Under the pieces are notes generated by a model. That model did no database searches and had not been told where the DNA came from. It saw nothing but the letters and a program-made list of their open reading frames with translations. A stretch of 64,000 nucleotides of DNA from Parafrankia discariae. Lineage in GTDB: Bacteria; Actinomycetota; Actinomycetes; Frankiales; Frankiaceae. Every line of letters starts with the position of its first letter. Positions within the stretch are counted from its first letter, which is position 1. Below, piece by piece: positions 25,428 to 62,527 of the stretch. The stretch is taken from the NCBI RefSeq assembly GCF_000373365.1, contig NZ_KB891210.1:1-64000 (forward strand), read 5' to 3'. Position numbers and translations under genes: made by a program.

Positions 25428-25602
25428 GGCTGTCCAGCTGGTGCCTCCGCCCGTCACGGGAACATCCGATCCACGGCTCCGGGTCCGGGTCCGGCTCCGC
25501 GGCCCGGGTCCGCGGCCCGGCTGGCAAAGGCTGCCGACGTCCAGAGGTCATCCCGCTGCGGATCTATCGGACAAAACCCTCGAACGTCAGGGTGGTCTGC
25601 TT

Positions 25603-25690
25603 GCCGTTTGGCATCCTTCTCGCCCTTGCAGAGCGAACTTCGCCGGAAATGCTGTCTGAAACGGCGAGAAAGAAACCAAACGGCGAGTAG
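25603..25690. repeat. structured palindromic element, copy 1
   Basis: An 88-nt imperfect palindrome. Outer stem GCCGTTTGG (25603-25611) pairs with CCAAACGGC (25676-25684); inner stem TTCTCGCC (25617-25624) pairs with GGCGAGAA (25663-25670), separated by a 5x5 internal loop, with a 38-nt terminal loop. It ends with GAGTAG. A second copy with the same layout and compensatory stem changes lies at 62347-62433. It sits in a 587-bp gap that otherwise holds a small ACCCT/AGGGT hairpin (25576-25593) and the 12-bp repeats below. Confidence 0.75.
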
Positions 25691-25870
25691 CCCAGCACCA
25701 GAAACGGACCGGGCCCCCACCGCCGTCAGATCGAGGCCCGCCGACGGTCGGGGCACCGGGCCGGCGCCGTGGCCGCACTCGACGGCTGCCAGTCGGGGGA
25801 CCACCTCGGCGAGCCAGCCGGGTCGGGGTTCGGTCGGCGAGCGCGTCCCAGGACGGGGTGTCCTCGCGAC

Positions 25871-25914
25871 CGGGACGTCAGCCGGGACGTCAGCCGGGAC
25901 GTCAGCCGGACGTC
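25871..25914. repeat. 12-bp tandem repeats with GACGTC cores
   Basis: Three exact copies of CGGGACGTCAGC (25871-25906) followed by a partial fourth (CGGACGTC). Each holds the palindrome GACGTC. They lie 100-145 bp upstream of the thioesterase start, so they could be iterated operators or slippage products. Confidence 0.7.
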
Positions 25915-61618: not shown

Positions 61619-62329
61619 ATGGCCCGCCATGCCGAGTACTGCCCGATCGCTGTCGGCGTCGAGATCCTCGGGGACCGATGGACACCACTCGTCCTGCGCG
61701 AGCTCAGCATCGGTGCGAGCGGGTTCAACGAGATCCACCGCGGTCTGCCGAGGCTCAGCCGGACCCTGTTGGCGCAGCGGCTGCGGACGCTTGAACGGCG
61801 TGGCCTGGTGCACCGTGCCGCGGCCGTGCCGGGACGGCAGGTCCGGTACTCGCTGACTCCGGCCGGCGCGGCGCTGACGCCCGTGGTCTGGGCGCTCGGC
61901 CAGTGGGCGGCGGAGTGGATGTTCGGTGATCCGGCCGACGGCGAATGCGACGGCCTGACCCTGATGTGGCGCCTGCACCAGTGCGCGGTGCGCGGATCAC
62001 TGCCCGACCGGCGCACCATCGTGCACCTCGTCCTCACCGGAGCCGGAGCGGCCGAGGGATGGCTCGACATCGACGAGCGCACCGTGACCGTGTGCCGGGA
62101 GGACCCGGGCCGCGACGTCGACCTGACCCTGGAGGCCGAGACCGCGCACATGCACCGGTGGCTCATGGGGCTCGCGTCCTTCCGTGAGCTCACGGTGGAC
62201 GGGCATGTGCGCATCCAGGGGCCCGCCCGACTCGTGCGGGCGTTTCCGGAGTGGTTCAGCACCACCGCCTTCGCCGAGGGACTGCGCCGGGGCCGGCTGC
62301 GCCGCGATCAGGACGCCGTTCCGGCCTGA
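61619..62329 (+). CDS. HxlR-type regulator with SCP2-like domain
   Basis: Protein of 236 residues. Residues 1-100 are an HxlR winged helix: YCPIAVGVEILGDRWTPLVL, FNEIHRGLPRLSRTLLAQRL and LERRGLVHRAAAVPGRQVRY. Residues about 130-225 resemble a sterol-carrier-protein-2 domain (TVTVCREDPGRDVDLTLEAE; FRELTVDGHVRIQGPARLVRAFPEWF quoted by its ends FRELTVDG and FPEWF), which could bind a hydrophobic ligand. It is probably a ligand-responsive repressor of itself and the divergent methyltransferase through the two GTAC palindromes. The ATG at 61619 lacks a clear ribosome site and is likely leaderless. Confidence 0.88.
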   Translation: MARHAEYCPIAVGVEILGDRWTPLVLRELSIGASGFNEIHRGLPRLSRTLLAQRLRTLERRGLVHRAAAVPGRQVRYSLTPAGAALTPVVWALGQWAAEWMFGDPADGECDGLTLMWRLHQCAVRGSLPDRRTIVHLVLTGAGAAEGWLDIDERTVTVCREDPGRDVDLTLEAETAHMHRWLMGLASFRELTVDGHVRIQGPARLVRAFPEWFSTTAFAEGLRRGRLRRDQDAVPA

Positions 62330-62346
62330 GGAGCCGGCGCCCCCTC

Positions 62347-62433
62347 GCCCTTTGCCTTCTTCCTCGCCGGTTCAGGGGTTGATTTAGCCGAAAACAACCC
62401 CGAAAGACGAGAAGGAAAGCAAAGGGCGAGTAG
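62347..62433. repeat. structured palindromic element, copy 2
   Basis: An 87-nt imperfect palindrome 17 bp after the regulator stop. Outer stem CTCGCCCTTTGC (62344-62355) pairs perfectly with GCAAAGGGCGAG (62419-62430); then CTCG (62363-62366) pairs with CGAG (62408-62411), and an apical stem GGGGTTG (62375-62381) pairs with CAACCCC (62395-62401). Compared with copy 1 (25603-25690) the left 22 nt match at 17 positions and the right 28 nt at 24, and two stem pairs have changed from G-C to C-G on both sides. It also sits where a terminator for the regulator would be expected. Confidence 0.75.
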
Positions 62434-62527
62434 GCCGCCCGGAGGTTAGGGCGTTTTGTTCGGTAGACGGTGCCTCGGCGGTCTGGTGGGCGCCTCGGTG
62501 GCCGGGGAGGCGTCGGCTACCTCGTGA

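Follow-up and report, generated by a model that had tools for sequence, protein, structure and literature searches.

The two hairpins in this 64,000-nucleotide stretch of Parafrankia discariae DNA (the window) belong to an interspersed repeat. At least 42 copies and one half copy are present in the genome of this soil actinobacterium (G000), and at least 20 in its relative Parafrankia soli NRRL B-16219 (G003). The copies are dispersed inverted repeats, mostly inserted into spacers, that lie outside predicted genes and are concentrated where genes converge. We consider the repeat to be, probably, a lineage-specific, non-autonomous REP/MITE-like element of these two Parafrankia species. The initial annotation had described a non-coding, hairpin-forming element in more than one copy, which these counts bear out, and the dispersed copies make the "small mobile palindrome" that it listed among several identities the best reading.

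Both hairpins, placed at 25603-25690 and 62347-62433 in that annotation, are real. Their lengths of 88 and 87 nt were correct, and the paired arms run from 25600 to 25687 and from 62344 to 62430, 3 bases to the left of the ends first given. The copy at 62347 is in reverse orientation, so the arms of the two copies had been matched crosswise. At each site the conserved unit is larger than the hairpin:

25562-25707, + strand: copy 1, whole modelled unit (leader, hairpin and subfamily-A tail); 157.3 bits with model R1, 85% identity to the next best copy
25562-25599, + strand: copy 1 leader, ATCTATCGGACAAAA..., conserved across copies; its − strand has a candidate small hairpin ahead of TTTTGTCC, unsupported by re-dealing of the leader halves
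25600-25631, + strand: copy 1 left arm, with two CTCGCC-type boxes
25655-25687, + strand: copy 1 right arm, with two GGCGAG boxes
62324-62468, − strand: copy 2, whole modelled unit, reverse, group B, without the A tail; 106.7 bits on −, 82.6 on +
62431-62468, − strand: copy 2 leader; terminator-like match at 62436-62453 on the + strand
62399-62430, − strand: copy 2 left arm
62344-62376, − strand: copy 2 right arm, starting 14 bases past the stop codon at 62329

About 41 of 50 arm positions had been said to match, and we count 40 identical columns of 50 in two arm blocks of our own choosing (columns 6-30 and 69-93 of the pairwise alignment). The exchange of G-C for C-G between the two copies at two stem positions is present, as are the common terminal letters GGCGAGTAG on the + strand of each hairpin. 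Folding of the window hairpins as RNA, on either strand, gave z scores of −5.2 to −6.6, and folding as DNA −5.2 and −5.9; 0 of 200 shuffles were as good. The word CTCGCCNTTT occurs four times in the window (0.14 expected), and since all four lie within the two elements, a genome-wide uptake-type word was rejected. No Rfam family attains its gathering score in a scan of the window. Downstream of copy 1, at 25870-25910, a 12-base unit CCGGGACGTCAG is repeated three times head-to-tail with a partial fourth.

The unit consists of the 88-nt hairpin preceded by a leader of about 40 nt (ATCTATCGGACAAAAnnCCcg...cGGGGcGGC). The left arm is pyrimidine-rich (CTCGCCnTTTG...CTTCTCGCCCTTTCgG) and the right arm reads CCcGAAACGGCGAGaAAGAAAcCAAAnGGCGAG; the arms are 32-33 nt long and the loop is 21-24 nt in 61 of the 62 copies. 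Each arm carries two six-base CTCGCC/GGCGAG boxes, 19 nt apart, whose letters are near-invariant (depending on the box, 45 to 48 of 48 copies have no more than one mismatch). The copies were divided by eye into group A (n = 24), which adds a common 3' tail and in some copies aligns over 240-315 nt, and group B, the remainder (n = 38). About a dozen diverged copies keep little besides the hairpin, and the scores in P. discariae range from 31 to 157 bits, several copies being degenerate. The half copy (L134:2283-2345) comprises the leader and left arm and stops at the inner box beside a predicted gene end. At L019 the initial left-arm bases (CCTGCTCGCCGTTT) are duplicated immediately upstream of the hairpin.

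Genome searches, in which the 90 or 150 top-ranked candidates from a first look were scored in each genome, yielded matches (E 1e-7 or better) among these candidates in 2 of 35 Frankiaceae genomes. Among the best candidates of each of the 33 others (4 Parafrankia and 29 from other genera) there was no copy. A pattern scan of 84,980 species genomes, with a pattern that fits 40 of the 62 known copies and in a collection from which records close to the window's genome may be absent, returned 20 stretches. Fourteen of these come from P. soli, and the remaining six reach a best model score of only 10.7 bits. Copy 1 as query had no match at E 0.01 in plasmids and phages, and the literature matches listed include no paper on this hairpin repeat.

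Thirteen of the 20 P. soli copies share their locus with a P. discariae copy. For 15 P. discariae copies lacking a P. soli partner, we compared the corresponding P. soli stretches, 14 of which match on both flanks, together with 20 stretches of four other relatives. The model finds no copy in any of the 35 (best 14.3 bits, E 0.08). Where both flanks could be used (23 comparisons at 12 loci), the spacer with the repeat exceeds the repeat-free one in length 21 times, in 17 cases by 130-430 nt, which indicates that most copies arrived by insertion; in the other two comparisons the P. soli gap is itself long. Some absences are likely losses, since at L032, one of the 15 loci, the P. soli stretch (L094:2080-2400) retains leader and 5' flank but lacks the hairpin. 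The spacers are too diverged for exact insertion ends or a target duplication to be read. The P. soli spacer matching copy L022 (L090, 2080-2420) contains a palindrome of 40 bases without mismatch, made of GTGGCGATTGAGTGAGTCCA with its complement, that is unrelated to the repeat.

At the 13 shared loci the two arms are 83% and 91% identical and the loop 78%, compared with 64% and 71% in the next 50 nt and 64-75% in the outer flanks. In several pairs, such as L035/L063 and L045/L064, the hairpin is a conserved island amid unalignable spacers. The identity of the arms suggests constraint on them, homogenisation by fresh copies being another possibility. This island-like conservation exceeds the prediction for a purely selfish, decaying repeat.

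With gene ends taken from our own codon-usage gene caller, not from curated annotation, none of the 49 independent hairpins (the 62 copies minus the 13 from P. soli whose locus is shared) lies mostly inside a predicted gene and one touches a gene edge. Orientation was counted at 47 loci, which leave aside the same 13 copies as well as L027 and L044, where one side is geneless. The flanking genes are convergent at 26 of these loci, run in the same direction at 16 and diverge at 5, as compared to 23, 114 and 37 of the 174 other junctions in the same stretches, a convergent excess with P of about 1e-11 by count. Divergent loci are depleted by spacer length (P 3e-10) and not clearly by count (P 0.08). 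The distance from hairpin to gene 3' end has a median of 123 nt (69 ends), and 16 ends lie within 50 nt. At the same-direction loci neither orientation of the repeat is preferred (9 vs 7). In the window, copy 1 is flanked by two + strand genes, one a partial phosphotransferase-family match (PF01636) and the other a thioesterase (PF00975), while copy 2 is flanked by a convergent HxlR-like gene and MFS transporter gene.

The initial annotation had taken the two G-C/C-G exchanges as direct evidence that pairing is maintained. Of all 62 copies, 36 have a standard pair at one flipped position and 45 at the other, which leaves 26 and 17 unpaired. When right arms were randomly re-dealt among 48 independent copies (leaving aside the 13 P. 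soli shared-locus copies and L018, which has an arm indel), own partners made 26.0 of 32 pairs as compared to 25.4, and 0 of 10,000 shuffles were as good. The signal is seen at position 6 (44/10,000), at position 10 (27/10,000) and without both flipped positions (87/10,000); it resides in group B (2/10,000) and is absent in A (4067/10,000). A copy's own right arm does not pair measurably better than one taken from the nearest relative, with 25.9 pairs for the latter (P 0.21), or 26.25 (P 0.91) when relatives are ranked by arm distance. Arms of the three nearest relatives give 25.8 (P 0.10) or 26.1 (P 0.70), depending on the distance used. The power of this control is limited, since close relatives have few stem differences, and the box letters vary so rarely that the boxes say little on pairing. 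RNAalifold returned 13 pairs with no double change among 30 rows, one of which, the copy at 62347, was in the wrong orientation.

Comparison between the species adds to this picture. In the stems of 10 locus pairs (L052, L065 and L038 were dropped from the 13), 20 single changes keep both species paired and 41 unpair one, and 4 of the 14 double changes are paired in both. Transitions that yield G-U on the + strand RNA and on the − strand RNA are about equally frequent (85 vs 80, counting G-U against A-C changes), with no strand asymmetry. Descent therefore suffices for the flipped positions, and these tests indicate no one-strand RNA role. The nearest-relative control, for all its limited power, removes the case for compensatory pairing, which is not upheld beyond descent. 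The initial annotation had named a lack of further copies, or stems that do not covary, as grounds against it: further copies were found, and stem covariation beyond relatedness was not. A one-strand RNA whose stem is kept by compensatory changes would account for the exchanges between the window copies and for the significant random re-dealing. It is nonetheless very improbable given the nearest-relative result, the lack of an effect in group A, the symmetry of G-U changes and the unpaired changes at shared loci, together with the lack of an Rfam match in the window and of a promoter-like match near either window copy.

The excess at convergent junctions would also be expected of a portable transcription terminator acting in both directions, or of an mRNA 3'-end structure, selected at such sites, a role that we regard as possible though unlikely. 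The strong hairpin on both strands and the arm conservation at shared loci are consistent with this role. So are the terminator-like matches near copy 2, three where 0.2 are expected, and a small stem followed by a T-run that the − strand of the leader shows in many copies. On the other hand, there are no terminator-like matches around copy 1, the same-direction loci favour neither orientation, half of the gene 3' ends are 123 nt or more away, and the main stem gives no covariation beyond nearest relatives. By eye the leader hairpin had looked like a covarying terminator, and this candidate was rejected. In the 33 of 49 independent copies with a clear leader, a copy's own halves (−4.92 kcal/mol) pair no better than hybrids between copies (−4.65 kcal/mol; 1963 of 10,000 shuffles as good). 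The leader stem folds with a mean z of −0.83, with 16 of the 33 below −1.

The near-invariance of the boxes as sequence would suit a different role, in which the four CTCGCC/GGCGAG boxes would bind, at the DNA level, a topoisomerase or architectural protein that relieves supercoils between converging genes. Such a role has been proposed for E. coli REPs and gyrase, and these REPs are reported to be gyrase targets (PMC3733652). Placement at converging gene ends and the absence of strand asymmetry would fit such a site. However, the spacing and the palindrome are equally expected of transposon ends, and no binding protein is known; by analogy a protein site of this kind is conceivable, and we think it improbable. 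The terminator and protein-site readings are both compatible with mobility, so that their odds overlap with those of the mobile repeat.

The mobile repeat that we favour resembles known families in part. REPs (PMC3733652) are palindromes of 20-40 bp whose stem is short and which carry a GTAG or CGTC tag, unpaired, at one end. Some of their families are species-specific, subfamilies differ in complementary letters of the stem, and most REPs are found close to gene 3' ends where the neighbours converge or run in the same direction. Like the REPs of that account, the Parafrankia repeat is many-copy, intergenic and lineage-restricted, lies near 3' ends between convergent or same-direction genes, and has subfamily swaps of stem letters; unlike them, its hairpin is 88 nt long, with arms of 32-33 nt. 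A GTAG tag is not conserved: 18 of 62 copies have it at the 3' foot (15 of 24 in A, 3 of 38 in B), where its first G belongs to the arm, and 8 of 62 have it on the other strand. REPs occur as paired units, each a small hairpin (REPIN). The single arms of the two window copies form no hairpins of their own (0 to −3.8 kcal/mol, at best with 17-18 of 200 shuffles as good).

Matches to the RAYT/Y1 transposase family PF01797 number 3 in P. discariae and 9 in P. soli, both draft genomes, and no RAYT gene flanks a copy in these drafts, the nearest Y1 being a partial match 3.5 kb from a copy (G003 contig 267). Two further genomes, G001 and G002, carry the PF01797 family without the hairpin repeat. No partner transposon was found at the Y1-type loci examined, and a link to an IS200-type transposase was rejected, as ten Y1 loci in four genomes gave nothing beyond short BLAST matches of low significance (E 4e-4 or worse) and a single box word, in L128. 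In P. discariae 57 of 58 arm matches fall inside the 42 copies and one in the half copy. The repeat departs from REPs in size, GTAG tag, unit and transposase, and we place it in the broader class of interspersed intergenic palindromic repeats rather than among the REPs. An integron attC site was also considered and set aside.

The ERIC and RU-1 elements of enterobacteria are MITE-type, intergenic inverted repeats that are presumed to be non-autonomous. By description, the Parafrankia repeat is like them in its size of around 100-170 bp, its inverted repeats, its intergenic location and its presumed non-autonomy; of MITE-type features, no transposase or target duplication was found for it. Bacterial stem-loop sequence families are repeated and intergenic, and some were suggested as terminators (PMC2267715). 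The likeness to these families is again by description alone, the Parafrankia repeat being intergenic, repeated and stem-loop forming; the word Frankia is absent from the main text of that paper.

If the repeat is mobile, an enzyme acting in trans would have spread the copies, and it may recognise the CTCGCC/GGCGAG boxes. Copies that landed in genes or promoters would have been lost, and those harming no promoter or reading frame, as at 3' ends, would survive. Some copies may then have been kept because a strong hairpin in either strand's RNA, or the binding of a protein, was useful where transcripts meet. The repeat would thus be tolerated, and perhaps useful, at gene 3' ends. Against this explanation, the analysis found neither a gene that would mobilise the repeat nor its exact ends nor a duplicated target site. 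In a bolder version, the repeat would be a mobile gene-end cassette that spreads to convergent junctions and works there as a two-way insulator, through the boxes as a putative protein site or through transcription-ending hairpins; we hold this to be rather unlikely.

For the reading of structured repeats, the lesson is that "compensatory changes" between two copies can stem from subfamily descent. If the cassette reading were true, a species would be rebuilding its gene ends with a transposable part. A repeat of two species with filled and empty sites would allow the spread of gene-end palindromes to be measured, and these sites could show whether the copies at convergent junctions persist because they are functional.
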